Assembly: GCA_019359375.1 (NCBI GenBank)
Contig: JAHHHL010000023.1
Location: forward strand, 1 to 64,000
Source of the DNA: Lyngbya sp. HA4199-MV5
GTDB taxonomy: Bacteria > Cyanobacteriota > Cyanobacteriia > Leptolyngbyales > Leptolyngbyaceae
DNA length: 64,000 nt
Reading direction: 5' to 3'
In this document: positions 11,772 through 61,818 of the stretch, one piece after another
Layout of the letters: every line of letters begins with the position of its first letter
How positions within the stretch are numbered: the first letter of the stretch is position 1
Translations under genes and position numbers: made by a program
Notes under the pieces: generated by a model
The model's input: only the letters and a program-made list of their open reading frames with translations
What the model was told of the DNA's origin: nothing
The model's database searches: none

Positions 11772-12635
11772 TTAGGATGCGTCGATCGCCGCTAAGATCC
11801 TAATCGCCTCAGCACATAAAAAATCATGACAATATCCATTGCTGGCAAGTAAACCGCCCCACTGGCTTACGTCTTCCTGGTTGTAGCGCAACGGGGTACC
11901 GTCAAAGTGGGTGAAACGCCCACCAGCCTCCGTCAAAATCAATTCTGGTGCTGCCAGATCCCAATCTTTGGGGGCAGAGGTGCCAGAAAGCGACACATAC
12001 ACATCTGCCTGCTGTTGCAGAATAGTCGCAATCTTGCCTCCCACACTACCAACCGATCGCTGCTTTTGCACCGGAAATTGCTGCATAAGCTGGTTAAACC
12101 GCTCATTGCGATGTGTGCGACTGGCGACGATCGTCAACTCTTCCACCCGATTCCGTTGCGATACATGAATCGGAACGGGTATTTCGTGCTGTTTTTCGAC
12201 AAAGGTGCCATTACCTGAAGTGGCGAAATAGAGGGTTGCAGCGGCGGGACAAACGACGACAGCTAAAACAGGGCGCTCGTCCTCCAAGAGCGCAATGTGA
12301 ACCGCGTATTCTCCAGTGCCCTGAATAAAATCCTTGGTGCCATCAAGCGGGTCAATCACCCAGACTCGTGGCTTTCTTAGACGTTCATGGCTGGGCTGAG
12401 CTTTGTAGGTTTCTTCGGTCAAGTAGGCAAATTCAGTGCGCCCCAAACTGGCGTGCAAGTTATTGAGAATATAGTCGTCAACAGCCGTATCCGCTGCTGT
12501 AATCGGTTCACCTGTGGCATCCTGGATCGCCAAATCTGCCAGTCGAACGTTAAGCAGGATGTCAGCCGCACCCCATCCAATGCTGCGGGCGATCGTCAGT
12601 AACTCGTGTAATTCGGTGGGGTGGAGATGGTTCAA
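11772..12635 (-). CDS. CysQ-like 3'(2'),5'-bisphosphate nucleotidase / inositol phosphatase family
   Basis: 287 residues. The metal-site motifs are present: TEET (about 73-76), IDPLDGTKDF (D95, D98) and KDWDLAAPELI near the C-terminus. The DGTKDF and WDLAAPE forms are closer to CysQ-type nucleotidases, which clear 3'-phosphoadenosine 5'-phosphate from sulfate assimilation, than to the paralogue at 2985-3860; this is inference. The only start that fits the family length is TTG at 12635. The frame stays open further upstream into repeat sequence without an ATG, so the exact N-terminus is uncertain. Confidence 0.82.
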   Translation of the reverse strand: MNHLHPTELHELLTIARSIGWGAADILLNVRLADLAIQDATGEPITAADTAVDDYILNNLHASLGRTEFAYLTEETYKAQPSHERLRKPRVWVIDPLDGTKDFIQGTGEYAVHIALLEDERPVLAVVVCPAAATLYFATSGNGTFVEKQHEIPVPIHVSQRNRVEELTIVASRTHRNERFNQLMQQFPVQKQRSVGSVGGKIATILQQQADVYVSLSGTSAPKDWDLAAPELILTEAGGRFTHFDGTPLRYNQEDVSQWGGLLASNGYCHDFLCAEAIRILAAIDAS

Positions 12636-41935: not shown

Positions 41936-42312
41936 GATTGCATCCAAGCACCCGCTTTCTTGCAACAAACATGCATTGCCGAAGCTTCAACATTCAGCGA
42001 CACAGCTCAAAGACTCAACGACGAGGCTTGATCATTCACAAACGAAGCTTCAACATTCAGCGACACAGCTCAAAGACTCAACGACGAGGCTCCAACACTC
42101 AACGACGAAACTTGATCATTCAGCGACAAAGCTCCAACACTCAACGACGAGGTTCAAAGACTCAACAACGAAGCTCCAACACTCAACGACGAGGTTCAAA
42201 GACTCAACAGCGAGGTTCAAAGACTCAACGACGAACCTTGGAACATCGTGCGTGAAACCTGGAGCTTCAACGATGAACCTCAGAGCTTGAGTACGCAAGT
42301 ACGATCGCCCCC
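41936..42312. repeat. 21-bp minisatellite, copy A (upstream of TIR-WD40 gene 3)
   Basis: Twelve clear 21-bp units from 41981 to 42232, types GAAGCTTCAACATTCAGCGAC and GAGGTTCAAAGACTCAACGAC, with three decayed units to about 42290. Two of three plus frames stay open without an ATG. One frame would read as coiled-coil heptads (LNDEVQR), so it may be the remnant of a coiled-coil gene. A related copy with the same end sequence lies at 46018-46345. Confidence 0.85.
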
Positions 42313-46017: not shown

Positions 46018-46345
46018 CCGATCGCGTTCAAACCCCAGTTTCTCTTAGCAAGCATTCAGCGCCGAAGCTCAAAGATTCATTGGCGAGTATCTAAGACTCA
46101 TCGACGAGGCTTGATCATTCATAAACGAAGCTTGATCACTCAGTGACGAGGTTCAAAAACTCAACGATGAAACTCCAACACGCAACGACACGGTTCAAAG
46201 TCTCAATGATGAGGTTCAGGGAGTCAATAACGAGATTCAAAGTCTCAACGACGAGGTTCAGAGAGTCAACGACGAAGCTCGGAACCTCGTGCGTGAATCC
46301 TAGAGCTTCAACGATGAGCCTTAGAGCTTGAGCGATCGCCTTTAA
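46018..46345. repeat. 21-bp minisatellite, copy B (downstream of TIR-WD40 gene 3)
   Basis: Same orientation and same 21-bp period as copy A (GAGGTTCAAAGTCTCAACGAC units). Its ending, CGTGCGTGAATCCTAGAGCT, matches CGTGCGTGAAACCTGGAGCT of copy A. More decayed: several units carry stop codons in the heptad frame. Confidence 0.8.
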
Positions 46346-46616: not shown

Positions 46617-49600
46617 ATGTCTGCTAATCAGTTTGCTACATCGGTTATCACACCGACAGAAATCTTAGAGGGTATTGCGGCGATCGCCCTTCAAAGCCAG
46701 CACTCTGTCGCCCTAGCAACGATTTTACAGACAGCACTCGAAACAACCAGAGCCTTGTTGCACAGCGATCGCGTTCTGCTCTATCGCTTTCTCGGTGAGG
46801 GTGATGGGATCGTCGCTGTAGAGTCTGTGAGTGCAGAATGGCTACCGCTACTGGGGCGTGTCATGCGCGATACATGCTTTGATCGTGCCCGCCTGGAGCG
46901 GTTTCGGCAGGGATACTGGGGCGCGATCGAGGATGTAGCGGACAGTAGCGTCTCAGCCTGTTATGCCGCTTTGTTAGACCGCCTACAAGTACAGGCAATG
47001 CTGACCATACCGCTTTTAACACAGGGCGATGTGTGGGGGTTGCTGATTGCCCACCAGTGTCAGAGTACCCGCTCATGGCATCCTTTAGACGTGCAATATC
47101 TTCAGATGGTTGCTGTGCAGCTAGGTATAGCCATGCAACTGCATCAAGCTGATGATGCCAGTAATGATCACAATTCGGTAGACGCATCGTTGCCCAGAAG
47201 TGAACAGTGGCTACAGCAGTTTGGTCTCCAGTCTTCTGGCAATATCATTTATACGCTGGTACAAGCATCCAACGGCGATCTCTGGTTTGAGTTCATCAAT
47301 GCTGCTGTCGAAGGGCTTCACGAAATCCCTTATACCCAGACGCTAGAAAACGCGCAGTGGCTCATCGATTCGATTCATCCAGACGATCGGGCTGGATATG
47401 TCGCGGCTCTGGCTCAGAGTGCGCAAACGCTCAGTGCCTTCTCGCACGAATGGCGGATTGTTATGCCTTCAGGGAAGGTCAAATGGCTTCAGGGGCACGC
47501 TCAACCGCAGCAACGTCCTGATGGGGCGATCGCGTGGTGCGGTGCGATGCAAGACATGAGCGAGCGCAAACGAACCGAAGTGGTTTTGCGAGAAAGTGAA
47601 GCCCACAAGACTGCGCTCATTAGCGCTCTGCCCGATCTGGTCATCCGGGCAAATGCACAGGGCATCTATCTAGAATTCCTTGCCACAAACACCTTTAGAG
47701 TCATTGGGAAAACAGGCGATTTTGTCGGGACCCACGTATACGACAGTTTGCCGCGCGACCTGGCAAAACAGCGCATGGAAGCGATCCACACTGCCCTGGC
47801 AACAAACTCCATTCAATTCTATGAACAAACGATCGCGGTTGATGGCGAAACTCAGACCGAAGAAGTGCGCGTGGTGCCGTATCAAGTAGACGAAGTGTTG
47901 CTGCTTGTCCGCGATATCAGCGATCGCAAACAGGCCGAAATCGCACTCTGGCAGCGTGCCGAACGAGAGCAAGCCTTCAGCCGCGTGGTGAAAGCAATCC
48001 GGCAATCCCTAGATTTGCACACCATTCTGACCGCTGCCGCAACTGAAATTGCCCAACTTCTAAAAGTCGATCAGGCAGCCGTTGTGCAATATTTGCCAGA
48101 GCGTCAATGTTGGCAGCACGTTGCGATTTATAAGCAGGAGCCAGACTTACCCAATCATCTTGGGCTAGAAATCCCTGATCAGGGAAATCCGTTTGGGGCA
48201 CAACTGAAGCGCCGAGAAATTGTCAGGGTGGTTGAGCCTGCTGACATCAGCGATGACATTAATCAGAGCATCGCTCAAAGGCTACCAGGATCGTGGCTCT
48301 TAGTTCCGGTGATTGTTGGTGATGCCGTTTGGGGTAGCTTTAGTTTGCTTTCAAGCCAAAAGATCGCGCATTGGCACGATGAGCAAGTCGAACTCGTGCA
48401 GGCATTAGCCGACCAGCTAGCGATCGCCATTCAGCAAGCCGCGCTGTATCAGCAGGTGCAAACTTTAAACACAAGTTTGGAGTTGCAGGTACAGGAACGC
48501 ACGGCACAGCTACAACAAGCATTAAACTTTGAGGCGCTGCTGAAACGAATTACCGATCACGTCCGCGATAGCCTGGATGAAGCACAGATTCTTCAAACGG
48601 CGGTACAAGAACTGGCGATCGAACTGGGCGTTGATTGCTGTGATGCCGCTCTTTACGATATGGAGCGTCGCAACTCTACCATTTGGTATGAAAATATTCA
48701 GGAGCAAGTATCGATCGGCATTGGTAACGTGATCGCGTTTGCCAGCTACCCCGATCTCTACCATCAATTATTGCAGGGGCAACCAGTTCACTGCTGTGTG
48801 CCGACGCTAGAACCAGATGCTTGCCGCAACATCAAACACACCTCCACCATCTTGGCTTGCCCGTTGATGGATGAGCGTGGTGTTTTGGGCGATATGTGGT
48901 TGTTTAAGCCCCAACACACCTATTTTGATGAGTTGGAAATCCGGTTGGTGCAACAGGTGGCGAATCAATGCGCGATCGCGCTACGGCAATCGCGGTTGTA
49001 TCAAGCAGCTCAAGCTCAAGTGGAGGAACTAGAACGGCTGAATCAACTCAAAGATGACTTTCTTAGCACGGTTTCTCATGAGCTGCGAACGCCCATGTCT
49101 AACATCAAAATGGCAACCCAAATGCTAGAACTGACCCTCAAGCCGCTGGGTGTTTTAGATCATGAAGCTGACCCAATCAACCGCTATTTCAGCATTATCC
49201 GCGAGGAAGGTCAGCGTGAAATTGGGCTGATCAACGATCTCCTCGACCTGACTCGTTTGGATGCAGGCACAGAGCCGATCAATCTTACGTCGATCGCGCT
49301 TCAGCCCTTTCTCGCTCATCTTGCCGAGCCGTTTTTTGATCGCGTTCGCAGGCAGCAACAGTACTTGATTCTTCAACTGCCTGACCAGCTACCCGCGCTC
49401 ACAACCGATCGTACTGACTTAGAGCGCATCGTGACCGAATTGCTGCAAAACGCCTGCAAATATACGCCTGCTGGAGAGGCGATTACCCTATCGGCTCACA
49501 CAACCCCAACGGCGCTCACCATTTGCGTGAGTAATGCGGGTGTTGAAATTCCAGAGATCGAGCGCGATCGCATTTTTGACAAGTTTTACCGCATTCCCAA

Positions 49601-49742
49601 CAATGACCCCTGGAAGTACGGTGGTACTGGACTCGGACTCGCGCTAGTCAAAAAGCTTGCAGAACGCTTAAATGCCAGCATTCGTGTTACCAGCGAGCAT
49701 CAACAAACAACCTTTACCTTAGAGTTCTTGAGGGTTACGTGA
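46617..49742 (+). CDS. Cyanobacteriochrome-type (DXCF) sensor histidine kinase
   Basis: 1041 residues: GAF1 (about 20-178), two PAS domains (about 205-330 and 335-445), GAF2 (about 460-625), GAF3 (about 645-805), HisKA with phospho-acceptor H821 (STVSHELRTPMSNIK), and HATPase (ELLQNACKYTP; YGGTGLGLALVKKL). GAF1 has the bilin-type sequence YRFLGEG, YWGAIEDV and WGLLIAHQC. Cys115 in SACYAALLDRLQ is at the canonical bilin-attachment position, and Cys87 in RDTCF is a DXCF second cysteine exactly 28 residues earlier. It is therefore probably a blue/green-sensing photoreceptor kinase. No receiver domain or response regulator is attached or adjacent. It is cytosolic, without membrane helices. Confidence 0.85.
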   Translation: MSANQFATSVITPTEILEGIAAIALQSQHSVALATILQTALETTRALLHSDRVLLYRFLGEGDGIVAVESVSAEWLPLLGRVMRDTCFDRARLERFRQGYWGAIEDVADSSVSACYAALLDRLQVQAMLTIPLLTQGDVWGLLIAHQCQSTRSWHPLDVQYLQMVAVQLGIAMQLHQADDASNDHNSVDASLPRSEQWLQQFGLQSSGNIIYTLVQASNGDLWFEFINAAVEGLHEIPYTQTLENAQWLIDSIHPDDRAGYVAALAQSAQTLSAFSHEWRIVMPSGKVKWLQGHAQPQQRPDGAIAWCGAMQDMSERKRTEVVLRESEAHKTALISALPDLVIRANAQGIYLEFLATNTFRVIGKTGDFVGTHVYDSLPRDLAKQRMEAIHTALATNSIQFYEQTIAVDGETQTEEVRVVPYQVDEVLLLVRDISDRKQAEIALWQRAEREQAFSRVVKAIRQSLDLHTILTAAATEIAQLLKVDQAAVVQYLPERQCWQHVAIYKQEPDLPNHLGLEIPDQGNPFGAQLKRREIVRVVEPADISDDINQSIAQRLPGSWLLVPVIVGDAVWGSFSLLSSQKIAHWHDEQVELVQALADQLAIAIQQAALYQQVQTLNTSLELQVQERTAQLQQALNFEALLKRITDHVRDSLDEAQILQTAVQELAIELGVDCCDAALYDMERRNSTIWYENIQEQVSIGIGNVIAFASYPDLYHQLLQGQPVHCCVPTLEPDACRNIKHTSTILACPLMDERGVLGDMWLFKPQHTYFDELEIRLVQQVANQCAIALRQSRLYQAAQAQVEELERLNQLKDDFLSTVSHELRTPMSNIKMATQMLELTLKPLGVLDHEADPINRYFSIIREEGQREIGLINDLLDLTRLDAGTEPINLTSIALQPFLAHLAEPFFDRVRRQQQYLILQLPDQLPALTTDRTDLERIVTELLQNACKYTPAGEAITLSAHTTPTALTICVSNAGVEIPEIERDRIFDKFYRIPNNDPWKYGGTGLGLALVKKLAERLNASIRVTSEHQQTTFTLEFLRVT

Positions 49743-52868: not shown

Positions 52869-53495
52869 ATGAATTTGAAGTCAATTGGTCTTAACGTTGC
52901 TGCGGCAACTGTAGTAGCTACGGGCGCAGCGATCGCATCCTCACCTGCTCAGGCGCTCTCGTTTAATAAGGGCACCTTTGTTGCTGGGGGGCAAACCAGC
53001 ATCACGAATCTCACTCCTACCTCATTCGATCTAAACTTCCAGAATTTTGGAGTTACCAGCACAACTGGTAGTTTAGCGGGTGGAAATCTAACCGGAACAC
53101 CGACTCTCGCGTCTTTATCGTTCACCAAGGATGCGAGTGGAAACTTCAACACCAGTGGCTTAACAAGCTTTGTAACGGGTCTCAAATACCAAGGGCAGGA
53201 CGCGTTCTTAGACATCAACCCATTCACGTTTACAGCTTCCACAGCTTTTGTGAACAGCGCAACGGAGTATCTCTTATTCTCGCGTACCCCATTTTCGGGA
53301 GTATTCAGAACTGCCAGTCTCGAATCCATTACCAGTATTACGCTCGGTGCCGTTAAACTCGGTACATTTAACAGCTCTACACTAACGGCTGAAATCCCAA
53401 CACCAGCGCTGTTGCCTGGATTGCTTGGTTTGGGCGTGGCGGCTCTGCGGAAGCGCAAAGCTCAAGCAACTGAAGAGGCTTCGGCAGAGGTCTAG
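52869..53495 (+). CDS. PTPA-CTERM exosortase substrate, secreted protein 1
   Basis: 208 residues. An N-terminal signal peptide (about 1-30, GLNVAAATVVATGAAIASSPAQA) is followed by a Thr/Ser/Gly/Phe-rich beta-type mature domain with no catalytic motif. The C-terminal sorting signal has PTPALLPGLLGLGVAALRKRK: PTPA motif, hydrophobic helix and basic cluster, followed by a short acidic tail. This is the cyanobacterial variant of PEP-CTERM signals processed by exosortases. It is probably an extracellular or cell-surface protein. It shares a leader with the next PTPA-CTERM gene, and a cyanoexosortase lies 2.3 kb downstream. Confidence 0.85.
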   Translation: MNLKSIGLNVAAATVVATGAAIASSPAQALSFNKGTFVAGGQTSITNLTPTSFDLNFQNFGVTSTTGSLAGGNLTGTPTLASLSFTKDASGNFNTSGLTSFVTGLKYQGQDAFLDINPFTFTASTAFVNSATEYLLFSRTPFSGVFRTASLESITSITLGAVKLGTFNSSTLTAEIPTPALLPGLLGLGVAALRKRKAQATEEASAEV

Positions 53496-53820
53496 GGTAC
53501 AGAAGAGGGGCAGCGCTAGAAGCTTCCACGCTTTCCGTTCTGCCCCTTTCTGGTTCGTTAGCATTTGCCTGTTAATAAACGCTTATTTCCACACTACGCC
53601 ACCTCAAAGCTCACTCTTCAGACGATCGCATTAATCTGCGCTTTAAAAGTTCCCGCTCTGTCAAACGTTTAAGGAGATAGCACCTGTCTTTAAAGATGCG
53701 ATAAAGCCTCTTGCAAAACGTTGTTGAGTTTGTGTCTGTCTACGTAGGATCACAGGTAACAGAGGAGCGGTCGTGGGCATAATACCCACTTTTCCTCTGG
53801 TAACTATTGGGCTGAACCCC
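53496..53820. other. Intergenic region upstream of PTPA-CTERM leader B
   Basis: No gene is supported. It contains a strong composite hairpin at about 53761-53808 (CAGAGGA ... TCCTCTG outer arms, GTGGG-CATAATA-CCCAC inner stem) flanked by GGTAACA/GGTAACT, which could end the preceding transcript or belong to the leader RNA that follows. Confidence 0.4.
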
Positions 53821-54007
53821 TTCTACCAACGGTGCATTGCCAGGGCTACTGGGATCGTCTAGACGCAAAAGTCTAGCCAAGTGCAGCCATTAGACGGTGA
53901 TTGATGGGTTGTGTATCCATCTGCTGAAGCCGTTATGCTGCGATCGCGACTACAGAGCACCTTTTTCTGTAGTTTCCGGTAGCCTACCAGGTTCAGTTGA
54001 AACCATT
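53821..54007 (+). ncRNA. Structured leader B upstream of PTPA-CTERM gene 2
   Basis: Block 1 (CTACCAACGGTGCATTGCC) and block 2 (CGGTAGCCTACCAGGTTCAG) match leader A almost exactly. GGCTACTGG (53844-53852) pairs with CCGGTAGCC (53976-53984), using a G-U wobble where A has G-C. Internal hairpins differ in sequence from A: CTAGAC-GCAAAA-GTCTAG near 53858-53875 and ACTACAG/CTGTAGT just before block 2. It lies 30 bp upstream of the start codon. Confidence 0.55.
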
Positions 54008-54037
54008 TGCAACCGAACGTACCTGTAGGTAGACACT

Positions 54038-54751
54038 ATGCATTTAAAACAACCGTTTGCGATCGTTGCGGCAACTGTTGCTGCGACCACTGTTTCTTTC
54101 ATGAGTTCTCACGCGGCTCAGGCATTGAGCTTTACATCGGGTCCTCTACCCACGACTCTGGGTGTAGACCTGATTGATTTTAATGGGCTGACTCCTGGCA
54201 TCGTGCCCACTAATCCGGCAGCGCCCATCGACCTGGGTGACGGCGTGACGTTGTTTGATTCGGCTCCTGGCAATCGTGATACGGTCATCACGGCTGAAGA
54301 TAAGCCACCGCAAGCAGCTCGACCCACAGGCAGTGACAGTAACTATCTCAAAGTGCGCCAAACGAATGCAACGTTTAGCTTTGAGAGACCCCTCGCCTAC
54401 TTTGGGTTATTGTGGGGGTCGATCGATGCCGAAAATACCATCCAGTTCTTCAACAGCTCCAGCACAACACCTGTGAACAGCTATACCGGGTCTAGCCTTG
54501 CCAGTTTGCTCGGCTTTTCTCTGCTACCGTTTCCAGCAAACCTGGGAGCCGATGGTACCAAGTATATTGAGTTTGCGCTAGCAGACATTGGTGCCGATGT
54601 AGACAAAGTTGTCCTCAGCACTGGGTTCTCACCCTTTGAAGTCGATAATGTGGCTTATCAAGCCATTCCTACGCCTGCTCTGTTGCCAGGGCTGCTTGGC
54701 ATGGGTATCGCAGCGCTACGGAAGCGTAAAGCGAAAGCAGTAGAAGGCTGA
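54038..54751 (+). CDS. PTPA-CTERM exosortase substrate, secreted protein 2
   Basis: 237 residues. A signal peptide (about 1-30, IVAATVAATTVSFMSSHAAQA) precedes a beta-rich mature domain (VDLIDFNGLTPG; IDLGDGVTLFDSAPGNRDT; LAYFGLLWGSIDAENTIQFF) like that of PEP-CTERM surface proteins of unknown role. The C-terminus has PTPALLPGLLGMGIAALRKRK, nearly the same signal as in the gene at 52869. A paired-substrate arrangement with a shared leader and a nearby exosortase suggests dedicated processing. Confidence 0.85.
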   Translation: MHLKQPFAIVAATVAATTVSFMSSHAAQALSFTSGPLPTTLGVDLIDFNGLTPGIVPTNPAAPIDLGDGVTLFDSAPGNRDTVITAEDKPPQAARPTGSDSNYLKVRQTNATFSFERPLAYFGLLWGSIDAENTIQFFNSSSTTPVNSYTGSSLASLLGFSLLPFPANLGADGTKYIEFALADIGADVDKVVLSTGFSPFEVDNVAYQAIPTPALLPGLLGMGIAALRKRKAKAVEG

Positions 54752-54974
54752 AGCAACCAATAATGTCATACGGCTCAATGGCATCGCTGCTAAGGATCGT
54801 GGATCTATTAAGGTGTAATTCTCTGCGTAGGGGCGTGGCATACCCTGCGGGAAGCAAGCTACGGTAGAAAGTCCTCGCCCTCGCCCAGACACATCTGCCG
54901 CATGCCGCGCCCGTACAACTAAAAGGCTGAGGTTGTCGAAGTTACTTAATTCATGATCTAAGCACATGATTGAA
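54752..54974. other. Spacer after PTPA-CTERM gene 2
   Basis: Holds a GTAGGGGCGTGGCATACCC-type cyanobacterial repeat fragment (about 54828-54866). No coding frame is supported. Confidence 0.4.
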
Positions 54975-55018
54975 ACGGTGGTGATGCTCTGCGTTGTGCT
55001 GAGTACACCACCGTTTTG
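54975..55018 (+). terminator. Probable rho-independent terminator
   Basis: ACGGTGGTG (54975-54983) pairs perfectly with CACCACCGT (55006-55014), with TTTT at the 3' side. It would end the transcript of the second PTPA-CTERM gene, 224 bp after its stop codon, and separate it from the HpsJ-exosortase pair. Confidence 0.55.
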
Positions 55019-55171
55019 GCACAGAATGACGTGACGTATGCCTTGTTGACTACATCAAGTTTTTACAGTAGATACCCGGATTACTACGTACTGCTGCGAA
55101 AAGTTGGTTGTCATTGCAAAATATCTTCCGCAATGGTGCCTGCCCCTCTTCAGTAAAGTGGTATCGATTTT

Positions 55172-55768
55172 ATGGCTTCTCTTTCTACTCAAAGTCTTGC
55201 TGGTATTAACGCAAAGCCTCTCTGTAGAGTGGTTGGTCTGGCGTGCGTTGCTGGTTTTGTGGTTGACCTTCTAATTTTGGCGTTACCACCTACGCTCAAT
55301 AGTGCAGAGTGGCGAGTCGGTTTTTTGCAACAGATGAGCGATCGCAGTATCGTTTTACTCTTTGGTGCAGCGCTTTTAATCTATAGCAATCTTGACTATC
55401 GTACCTGGCGAAAACAGTTGGCAATGCTGTGTCTGGTGCTAGGGATTGTGTTTCAACTTTCTTGCCTTTTGGTGATTAAAGACAGCCTCTCGCTGAACGA
55501 TATTGCAACTAGAAATATCAATGTGCAGGCATCTCAAGTGCAATCTCAGATTGAAACGGCTAAAACTGATCCAAAAGCTGCGCCCAACATTACGCCAGAC
55601 CAGTTAGAGAAGGCTTCTCAGCTTGTTACTACTCGTGCCGGTTCGTTGAAAAACAGTGCCAAAACAAGCATTCTCAAGACGGCAGGAGCCATTGTGGGCA
55701 ACTTAGTCGTGGTGGGTTTGGCGCTCATTGGGTTAGGGCGCTACGGTATGCGTCCCAGTAAAGGTTGA
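55172..55768 (+). CDS. HpsJ-like, cyanoexosortase-associated membrane protein
   Basis: 198 residues: membrane helices at about 18-40 (VVGLACVAGFVVDLLILALP), 60-75, 85-110 (LAMLCLVLGIVFQLSCLLVI) and 170-190 (GAIVGNLVVVGLALIGLG), with a hydrophilic helical loop (about 111-165) between the last two. This layout matches the HpsJ-like proteins encoded next to cyanoexosortase genes. It starts a two-gene unit with the exosortase 4 bp downstream. The role is thought to be accessory to surface protein or polysaccharide export; direct evidence is lacking in the sequence. Confidence 0.75.
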   Translation: MASLSTQSLAGINAKPLCRVVGLACVAGFVVDLLILALPPTLNSAEWRVGFLQQMSDRSIVLLFGAALLIYSNLDYRTWRKQLAMLCLVLGIVFQLSCLLVIKDSLSLNDIATRNINVQASQVQSQIETAKTDPKAAPNITPDQLEKASQLVTTRAGSLKNSAKTSILKTAGAIVGNLVVVGLALIGLGRYGMRPSKG

Positions 55769-55772
55769 ATGT

Positions 55773-56690
55773 ATGCAGTGGCAACAGCGGTTAAAACAGA
55801 CAACTCAGGATTCGTTGCATGAACTGCTTAAAGAGACGCACGGGCGCATTGTGCTCTGCGGACTCCTGGTAGGGCTATGGTATTTGCCTGCCTGGTTAGG
55901 GGTTCTGTTTCATCGGATGGGCAGAGGTTCCTCCAGCCTGGTTTTGCTGCTGGCGATCGTCTACCTGGGCTTGCAGGAGCTATGGAAACAGCGCAAACAG
56001 CTTGCCAAGAGCCGAGTTTCTGATGCCGATCGCTTCCTGGGACACGCCCTCATTCTGGCTGGTATCGTACTTTTTCCGTTTTGCCGCTTTGCCATCTGGT
56101 CGCAGGCGCTCGTCTGGCTGATCGTTTTGATTGGGATTGCGTGCAGTTCGTGGGGCGGTGGATTCTTTCGTCGACACGCCCTCCCCACGGCGCTCATGGG
56201 TCTCAGCGTTTATCCACGCCCCGGAGAAACCGCAAAGATTATGTGGGAAATCTTCACGCCACCACGAATGCTCGATCGCTTAACGGCATGGGTGGGCAGT
56301 GGCGCGTTACATGTTATCGGACAACCCGCGAAGGTTACGAATGATGTGTTCATTTCCTTACCCACAGGTTCCGTTGAGGTTGGCTGGGGTTGCAATGGCT
56401 TTGGAATGGCAACCAATATTGCGATCGGCGGCTTAATTTTAGGATTGTTTTTGAAACAAAGCTGGTTCAAAATCATTCTCTTAATGACGCTTGGCACGCT
56501 TTTAGCGTTCGTGCTCAATGTTCCCCGAGTGATGCTGGTGACATATGCAGCCGTGTATTGGGGCAAATATTGGTTTGATTTCTGGCATACCTCATGGGGC
56601 GCTCAGATCTTTGTGGCGGTTCTGTTCACCATTTACTATTACTTAGTGATGGCGATCGTGAATCGATCGCCTAAAAAGATGCCTGTATAG
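55773..56690 (+). CDS. Cyanoexosortase (C type likely), transmembrane sorting protease
   Basis: 305 residues, about eight membrane helices. The exosortase catalytic residues are visible: C207 in GWGCNGFGM, R252 in NVPRVM and H272 in FWHTSWG. Exosortases cleave PEP-CTERM-type signals and likely transfer the protein to a surface anchor. HpsJ-like neighbours and PTPA-CTERM substrates nearby point to the cyanoexosortase C group; this subtype is inference. Translation is probably coupled to the HpsJ-like gene (4-bp gap). Confidence 0.9.
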   Translation: MQWQQRLKQTTQDSLHELLKETHGRIVLCGLLVGLWYLPAWLGVLFHRMGRGSSSLVLLLAIVYLGLQELWKQRKQLAKSRVSDADRFLGHALILAGIVLFPFCRFAIWSQALVWLIVLIGIACSSWGGGFFRRHALPTALMGLSVYPRPGETAKIMWEIFTPPRMLDRLTAWVGSGALHVIGQPAKVTNDVFISLPTGSVEVGWGCNGFGMATNIAIGGLILGLFLKQSWFKIILLMTLGTLLAFVLNVPRVMLVTYAAVYWGKYWFDFWHTSWGAQIFVAVLFTIYYYLVMAIVNRSPKKMPV

Positions 56691-59989: not shown

Positions 59990-60991
59990 TCAGGACAATG
60001 GATGAAAACAGATGCGATCGCGTCCTGCTGCCTTCGCTTCATACAATGCTTTGTCGGCTGCGGTAATGAGCGTTTCTGGCAAAAAATTCAGGGTGCGATC
60101 GGGTATCACACTCGAAACGCCCAAGCTGAGCGTCACGTATGGACTCACACTCGAATTGGGATGCACCAATTGCAGCGCTTTTACACTCGACTGAATCATT
60201 CGTGCTACTTCAACCGCGCCATCGATCGGCGTGTTGGATAAAATCACGGCAAACTCTTCGCCACCGTAGCGTGCCGCCAGATCACCGGGACGTTTGGCTA
60301 CGGCACTAATCGCATTGGCAACCTGACGCAAACACGCATCTCCAGCTAAATGTCCATAGCCGTCCGCATCGTTGTACCGCTTAAACTGATCTACGTCGCA
60401 GAGAATTAACGACAGCGGTTCTCCGTTGCGCATCATCCGTCGCCATTCTTGATCAAGGTGGGCATCTAGCATCATGCGGTTCGCAAGTTGCGTCAAAGCA
60501 TCAACGGTTGCCAGCCGGTGAAACAATTTGGTTGCCGTTTCCAGTTGTTTGAGCAATTGGGATTGTTGAATGAGTCTGCGAACCCGTTGACGCAACACTG
60601 CCCAATGAATGGGTTTCGTTACATAGTCGGTCGCACCAGCGGCGAAGGCTCGATCGACCGACACCTGATCATCCAGGCTGGTAATCATTAGAACGGGTGT
60701 ATGGTCGGCATCGGGCAAGGATTGCAATTGAGCACAGCATTCAAACCCGTCCATGACTGGCATCATGCCATCCAGCAGCACAATATCTGGCTGAAAGCGC
60801 GTACAGGCTTCGATGCCTTCTTCACCATTGCTGGCTTCAATAATCTGATAGTTGCCTTTCTCTAGAAAGCGTCGAATCTGAGTGCGGATTACGTTCTCAT
60901 CATCAATCAGTAAAATCAGGGGCGATGCTTTGGGCATAAAGGGCGGAGTCAAAGGTGATTTAAGCAGCGAGAGATTTACAGGAGGATTCAT
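59990..60991 (-). CDS. PleD-like response regulator: receiver + GGDEF diguanylate cyclase
   Basis: 333 residues. Receiver domain (about 25-145): DDEN acidic pocket, phospho-acceptor Asp in IVLLDGMMP, Lys in YVTKPIH. GGDEF domain (about 165-330) with the active-site motif GGEEF, and RPGD five residues upstream, which matches the RxxD inhibitory I-site. It therefore probably makes c-di-GMP with product inhibition when phosphorylated. The start ATG overlaps the upstream stop by ATGA (60988-60991), so its translation is coupled to the REC-HPt gene. Confidence 0.92.
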   Translation of the reverse strand: MNPPVNLSLLKSPLTPPFMPKASPLILLIDDENVIRTQIRRFLEKGNYQIIEASNGEEGIEACTRFQPDIVLLDGMMPVMDGFECCAQLQSLPDADHTPVLMITSLDDQVSVDRAFAAGATDYVTKPIHWAVLRQRVRRLIQQSQLLKQLETATKLFHRLATVDALTQLANRMMLDAHLDQEWRRMMRNGEPLSLILCDVDQFKRYNDADGYGHLAGDACLRQVANAISAVAKRPGDLAARYGGEEFAVILSNTPIDGAVEVARMIQSSVKALQLVHPNSSVSPYVTLSLGVSSVIPDRTLNFLPETLITAADKALYEAKAAGRDRICFHPLS

Positions 60992-61818
60992 GACGCTTGA
61001 TAGAATTGTGTCTGCTTTAAAGCAGTGTCAACGCACTCATACTCAGACTCCAGGGATGCAATCATGACCGTAATCTGGTCGATCGACGCACTCAGCGCCA
61101 TTGCTTCTAATTCTCTGCAACGCTGACTGAGGCAGAGCGCTCCCAGGGAGGCACTACTCGCTTTTAGCCCATGCGCAACCCGCTGTACTGTCTTTACATC
61201 ATGCTGGGTAATAGCTGTGTGAAGCGTTTGCAAAAGACGAGGAGCTTCTGTAAGGTAACAAGTAATCAACTCAGCAACGACCTCGTCTCCCGTTTCCCCC
61301 ATTTCCTGTTGAAAGGATGACAGCACGGCGAAATCTAACGTAAGGCTGTTGGGGTCGCTCGTTGTAGACGTTAAAGGCTTCGTAGAGGCTGGAGAAACGT
61401 GGTCGTCAACGAGCGCGATCGCATGATTCAACGGTTTGCATTGCTCCAGTACCTGACCCAGATCTTGCATCCGGATCGGCTTACTCATGTAGTGATCCAT
61501 GCCTGCCCGGAGACACATATCACGATCTCCGGGCATGGCGTTTGCCGTGATGGCAATTAAATAAGGGCGCAGGTGAGGTGGCATTTGTTGGCAGATCCAG
61601 CGAGCCGCTTCCAGTCCATCCATTTCTGGCATTTGCACATCCAGCAACACCACATCATACGGTTGGTGTTGTAGCGCCTCTATCACTTCCAGCCCATTCT
61701 CTGCTGTATCCGCCTGATAGCCGAGACGCTGCAACATCAGCAGTGCAATCTTCTGGTTAAGCAGGTGATCGTCTGCCAGCAAAATTTTGAGAGGGACGCG
61801 ATCGAGTTTAGGCACCAT
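60988..61818 (-). CDS. Receiver + HPt phosphotransfer protein
   Basis: 276 residues. Receiver domain (about 10-128): LLADDHLLNQKIA, phospho-acceptor Asp in VVLLDVQMPEMDG, ITANAMPGDRD and Lys in HYMSKPIR. A linker of about 40 residues precedes a C-terminal HPt domain (about 175-270) with the phospho-histidine in RVAHGLKASSASLGA. It has no kinase domain: it looks like the detached C-terminal half of a hybrid histidine kinase and could relay phosphate to the REC-GGDEF protein encoded in the same operon. Four-base stop/start overlap with that gene. Confidence 0.9.
   Translation of the reverse strand: MVPKLDRVPLKILLADDHLLNQKIALLMLQRLGYQADTAENGLEVIEALQHQPYDVVLLDVQMPEMDGLEAARWICQQMPPHLRPYLIAITANAMPGDRDMCLRAGMDHYMSKPIRMQDLGQVLEQCKPLNHAIALVDDHVSPASTKPLTSTTSDPNSLTLDFAVLSSFQQEMGETGDEVVAELITCYLTEAPRLLQTLHTAITQHDVKTVQRVAHGLKASSASLGALCLSQRCRELEAMALSASIDQITVMIASLESEYECVDTALKQTQFYQAS

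Follow-up and report, generated by a model that had tools for sequence, protein, structure and literature searches.

A predicted DXCF-type cyanobacteriochrome histidine kinase in Lyngbya sp. HA4199-MV5 and its orthologs with two, one or no bilin-site cysteines

The window, a 64,000-nucleotide stretch of contig JAHHHL010000023.1 from Lyngbya sp. HA4199-MV5, encodes a 1041-residue multidomain sensor histidine kinase, whose domains are listed in Table 1. Pfam placed three GAF stretches (the best at residues 33-173), PAS_3 at 243-305, PAS_4 at 338-439, HisKA at 812-884 and HATPase_c at 931-1037, bearing out an earlier sequence-only reading that had described two GAF and two PAS domains besides the first GAF domain (GAF1). 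The open reading frame and motif positions also confirmed the coordinates, residue numbers and 28-residue spacing between C87 and C115 given in that reading. The H-box SHELRTP (His821), the N-box NACKY from residue 945 and the G-box GTGLGL from residue 1003 are intact, which, together with HisKA and HATPase_c, identifies the protein as a HisKA-type sensor histidine kinase. GAF2 and GAF3 were rejected as further bilin domains: neither cysteine position is filled in GAF2 in the GAF alignment, and the bilin site of GAF3 lacks a conserved cysteine in the ortholog alignment.

Table 1. Coordinates of the kinase, its domains and diagnostic residues, and neighbouring signalling genes (window positions unless a locus of a related genome is named)
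Feature	Position	Strand	Basis or remark
Sensor histidine kinase, GAF1-PAS-PAS-GAF2-GAF3-HisKA-HATPase	46617..49742	+	1041 aa from ATG; ORF and Pfam
GAF1, cyanobacteriochrome-type bilin domain (residues 13-180)	46653..47156	+	PDB sequence matches, model matches
DTCF motif, residues 85-88, second Cys C87	46869..46880	+	On TePixJ C494 by sequence and structure
Canonical Cys C115 and Tyr116	46959..46964	+	On TePixJ C522/H523 and miRFP670nano C86/Y87
Met128, replacing the Asn equivalent to TePixJ N535	46998..47000	+	Alignment of two-cysteine GAFs
PAS1 (residues about 200-318)	47214..47570	+	Differs from the corresponding PAS of G001, G005 and G002
PAS2 (residues about 325-440)	47589..47936	+	Pfam PAS_4; 70-87% in orthologs
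GAF2 (residues about 455-612)	47979..48452	+	Pfam; no bilin Cys
GAF3 (residues about 650-795)	48564..49001	+	Pfam; ortholog alignment
HisKA and HATPase_c kinase core (residues about 805-1041)	49029..49739	+	Pfam; HisKA 85-88% identity across orthologs
REC-Hpt gene and REC-GGDEF gene	59990-61818	-	Overlap at 60988-60991; about 10 kb downstream of kinase
Ethylene-receptor-like (ETR1_N) hybrid kinase, G006/G005	L039:9380-12010, L041:2739-5291	both +	Divergent from kinase ortholog

In the window, TIR-WD40 genes lie upstream of the kinase on the same strand, and TrkH and TrkA genes lie downstream. Between the nearest TIR-WD40 gene and the kinase, at about 46080-46330, we observed repetitive AACGACGAGGTTCA-like sequence that is similar to positions 12015-12395 of locus L039 and reminiscent of low-complexity open reading frames at 41938-42290. 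Further downstream, at 52869-56690, a pair of PTPA-CTERM surface proteins is encoded next to cyanoexosortase C. The statement that no cognate response regulator is adjacent proved strictly right, but two response-regulator genes stand some 10 kb downstream, and the REC-Hpt and REC-GGDEF products are candidate parts of an orphan phosphorelay.

In GAF1, the motif DTCF begins at residue 85 and ACYAALL at residue 114; of 123 related GAFs with both cysteines, 111 show the same spacing of 28 residues between them. A PDB sequence search with residues 13-187 returned only bilin domains of cyanobacteriochromes and phytochromes, with a PPHK-type dual-sensor kinase (1.1e-29), miRFP670nano and TePixJ as the top solved proteins. 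An AlphaFold model built from 34 sequences (mean pLDDT 90.4) matched PPHK, AnPixJ, miRFP670nano and TePixJ at Z scores of 22-26. Its superposition on TePixJ (4GLQ) paired residues 17-165 with chain residues 436-584; since these ranges are equal in length and 149 residues were aligned, the alignment contains no gap, and C87 falls on C494, C115 on C522, Tyr116 on His523 and Met128 on Asn535. The canonical cysteine thus stands at the bilin site in the TePixJ-type alignment that the sequence-only reading had proposed as a check. Of the TePixJ pair, C522 is the anchor of ring A and C494 the residue that adds to C10 (PMC6955287). Asp85, Leu120, His146 and the WGLLIAHQC block of GAF1 also match the TePixJ-type consensus. 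On this structural alignment, the 28-residue spacing of C87 and C115 is not a matter of chance.

The phylogeny, computed after removal of the diagnostic columns, comprised 168 GAF sequences drawn from relatives, from 80 genome-collection loci and from solved references; since sampling was biased to query-like sequences, the counts hold for this neighbourhood and not for all cyanobacteriochromes. GAF1 and its four orthologs formed a 99% group within a clade of 20 rows, 16 of which have both cysteines, and the red/green references AnPixJ, NpR6012g4 and Slr1393g3 formed a separate 100% group. Deeper branches were weakly supported, so GAF1 is assigned to the DXCF domains at large rather than to a particular sub-lineage. 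GAF1 therefore combines a bilin-type GAF fold, a canonical cysteine at the ring-A site and a second cysteine in Asp-X-Cys-Phe with a position in a two-cysteine clade apart from the XRG lineage; where XRG red/green domains carry WXDXXL, GAF1 reads RDTCFD. The cysteine sites, homology and clade support the earlier assignment of GAF1 as a putative DXCF cyanobacteriochrome, for which light sensing would be expected.

Among known systems, the blue/green DXCF domain of TePixJ (4GLQ, 3VV4) shares the structural positions and spacing of both cysteines with GAF1, which also has equivalents of its Asp492, Leu527 and His553. By contrast, His523, Asn535 and Gln526 of TePixJ are Tyr116, Met128 and Leu119 in GAF1, TePixJ lies in another part of the GAF tree, and its output is that of a chemotaxis protein rather than a histidine kinase. 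The best match in both sequence and fold was the GAF of the PPHK-type dual-sensor histidine kinase (6OAP; 34% identity, Z 26.2), which likewise belongs to a sensor kinase; unlike GAF1, it has DQYF without the second cysteine, and its canonical cysteine is followed by His.

Syntenic orthologs were found in four of the six other genomes of the genus (G006, G001, G005 and G002), with orthology backed by varying subsets of shared neighbours: the MlaE permease, TrkH/TrkA, the PTPA-CTERM proteins and cyanoexosortase C. All frames are open, with the G005 contig stopping within the gene. The closest ortholog, in G006 (79% overall), keeps both cysteines as DSCF and CH; those in G001 and G005 keep DPCF and have lost the canonical cysteine through a one-residue deletion, which, being common to two genomes, argues against sequencing error; and the G002 protein has neither bilin cysteine. 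A GAF1 relative in G025, of the same family, also has DPCF, with Gly in place of the canonical cysteine. Loss of the canonical cysteine need not mean loss of the bilin, since cyanobacteriochromes of the DXCIP group are known to attach it through the Asp-motif cysteine only (Fushimi et al. 2016, as reviewed in PMC5578081). The G001 and G005 proteins resemble that group in retaining this cysteine alone, but in DPCF rather than DXCIP, whereas the window protein keeps both. The canonical cysteine of G001, G005 and G002 may have been lost once or more than once: the GAF1 tree left G002 outside, and a single clade of the three was not rejected (AU p 0.096); in the kinase-core tree, G001 grouped with G002.

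In the two closest pairs, the dN/dS of GAF1 (NG86) was about 0.27-0.29 and that of the other domains 0.04-0.18. This suggests that GAF1 is less tightly constrained, but dS differs greatly from domain to domain. We set this ratio aside as proof of relaxed selection because dS was saturated or inconsistent across domains, hinting at recombination. Identity of PAS1 is 82% with its G006 counterpart but drops to 25-29% with the PAS that occupies the corresponding position in G001, G005 and G002, which may reflect domain replacement or exchange; the window protein and G006 also lack one PAS that those three possess. In GAF2, the window protein comes closer to G001 (84%) and G006 closer to G002 (82%), unlike in the rest of the gene, which suggests recombination inside the kinase. 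In genome G041, an open reading frame stretch (L168:574-3483, minus strand) has a 64% match to the GAF3-HK part of this kinase and lies ahead of a separate frame that starts with a GAF1 relative.

A divergently oriented ethylene-receptor-like hybrid kinase (ETR1_N, HisKA, REC) adjoins the ortholog in both G005 and G006, the two copies being 84% identical. This gene is absent from the window locus, with paralogs at about 60% identity elsewhere in the genome. No remnants of it were found between 45964 and 46617, where only flank similarity to G006 was detected. Given its presence in G005 and G006, loss in the window species is the simplest reading; G002 also lacks the gene. Ethylene-receptor and bilin-GAF kinases are associated in UirS/SynEtr1 as well, where an ethylene receptor is fused to a cyanobacteriochrome (PMC6682694), but G006 and G005 encode them in separate, divergent genes.

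The pocket of GAF1 bears on how well the domain would switch. Tyr116, which the sequence-only reading had singled out as replacing the usual His, is indeed present, but we rejected it as a special feature: among 123 two-cysteine GAFs, His occupies this position in 78 and Tyr in 36. The rarer feature among the aligned sequences is Met128, at a site where 109 of the 123 have Asn and Met is confined to the window protein and the G006 ortholog. A title-level literature search of a limited collection found no paper on a Tyr in place of the canonical His. It is conceivable, though unlikely, that GAF1 binds a bilin and switches poorly, with Tyr116 stacking on the chromophore and Met128 failing to hold the D ring, so that the holoprotein would fluoresce or be weakly photoactive, or the domain would need a different bilin. 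An argument for such a weakly switching pocket comes from NpR3784, which was converted to fluorescent miRFP670nano by 18 substitutions including H87Y and N99I (PMC6336887): in the structural alignment to 6MGH (about 35% identity, Z 24.2), Y116 and M128 fall on residues 87 and 99, and miRFP670nano likewise has Tyr after the canonical cysteine and is hydrophobic at position 99. In TePixJ crystals, N535, beside ring D, showed the largest light-induced change together with that ring (PMC6955287), and mutation of the residue after the chromophore cysteine can suppress photoisomerisation (PMC5578081, a review). A miRFP670nano-like effect of the two positions in a DXCF domain is an analogy, however. 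Tyr116 by itself is common, M128 also occurs in G006 where the cysteine is followed by His, and miRFP670nano carries 16 other changes, binds the biliverdin for which it was engineered, has DRYF without the DXCF cysteine and derives from a wild type with His87 and Asn99.

More doubtful still is a degenerating or light-blind GAF1, its two cysteines being leftovers in a kinase that senses another cue. The one- and no-cysteine orthologs, with open frames and, where complete to the C-terminus, a conserved kinase core, are consistent with this, as is the divergence of GAF1 in G002, at 54% identity among the least conserved shared domains; yet the window species and G006 keep both cysteines, Asp85, Tyr56 and His146, and dN/dS is well below 1. 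That the kinase works together with the TIR-WD40 genes beside it, light gating a TIR system, appears very improbable. The adjacency claimed earlier holds in the window, and G006 also has a TIR-WD40 gene nearby, but the variable synteny among relatives led us to reject a functional link, the TIR-WD40 neighbour being no conserved partner: the gene directly upstream encodes the MlaE permease in G002 and the ethylene-receptor-like kinase in G005, and in G006 a gene of the latter kind intervenes between kinase and TIR-WD40 gene. In the window, a 650-base gap separates those two.

The explanation we favour, and consider probable, is that GAF1 is a phycocyanobilin (PCB)-binding domain of the DXCF lineage in a light-controlled kinase. 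The genome, with one heme oxygenase and reductases of the PcyA, PebA and PebB types, is by its gene content capable of phycocyanobilin synthesis. GAF1 would most likely take up this bilin, with ring A fixed by C115; C87 would add to C10, producing a blue-shifted state; and light would alter how a soluble histidine kinase signals, an enzyme that may also read the inputs of its PAS pair and of the non-bilin domains GAF2 and GAF3. Weighing against this explanation are the orthologs that lack one or both cysteines, Met128 at the Asn535 site and the higher dN/dS of GAF1. Bilin binding, PCB/PVB identity, any photocycle, control of the kinase and a partner regulator are what we infer from sequence. 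The definite violet-blue/green switch first read from the motif was not retained, as a motif cannot give a photocycle, Met128 replaces a near-constant Asn and sister species have lost cysteines.

In summary, the protein is, by the sequence tests applied, a well-formed DXCF cyanobacteriochrome kinase and thus an ordinary member of a large known family, and what is unusual is the loss series among its orthologs and the two-position change in the pocket. We regard as tentative, and on balance doubtful, the combined picture of one orthologous kinase in one genus whose bilin sensor moves through two, one and no anchors with the kinase itself conserved, and of a native window form that has two anchors and a pocket resembling the fluorescence-engineered one at two positions and that switches weakly or fluoresces. 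To judge from the Met128/Tyr116 pocket and from the sister species that have lost cysteines, light would be one tunable input of the kinase rather than an indispensable one. The five syntenic orthologs with two, one or no pigment cysteines offer a comparison set for how a kinase may lose or change its light input while being kept, and the Tyr116/Met128 pocket offers a test of whether residues selected in the evolution of fluorescence act alike in a natural DXCF domain.
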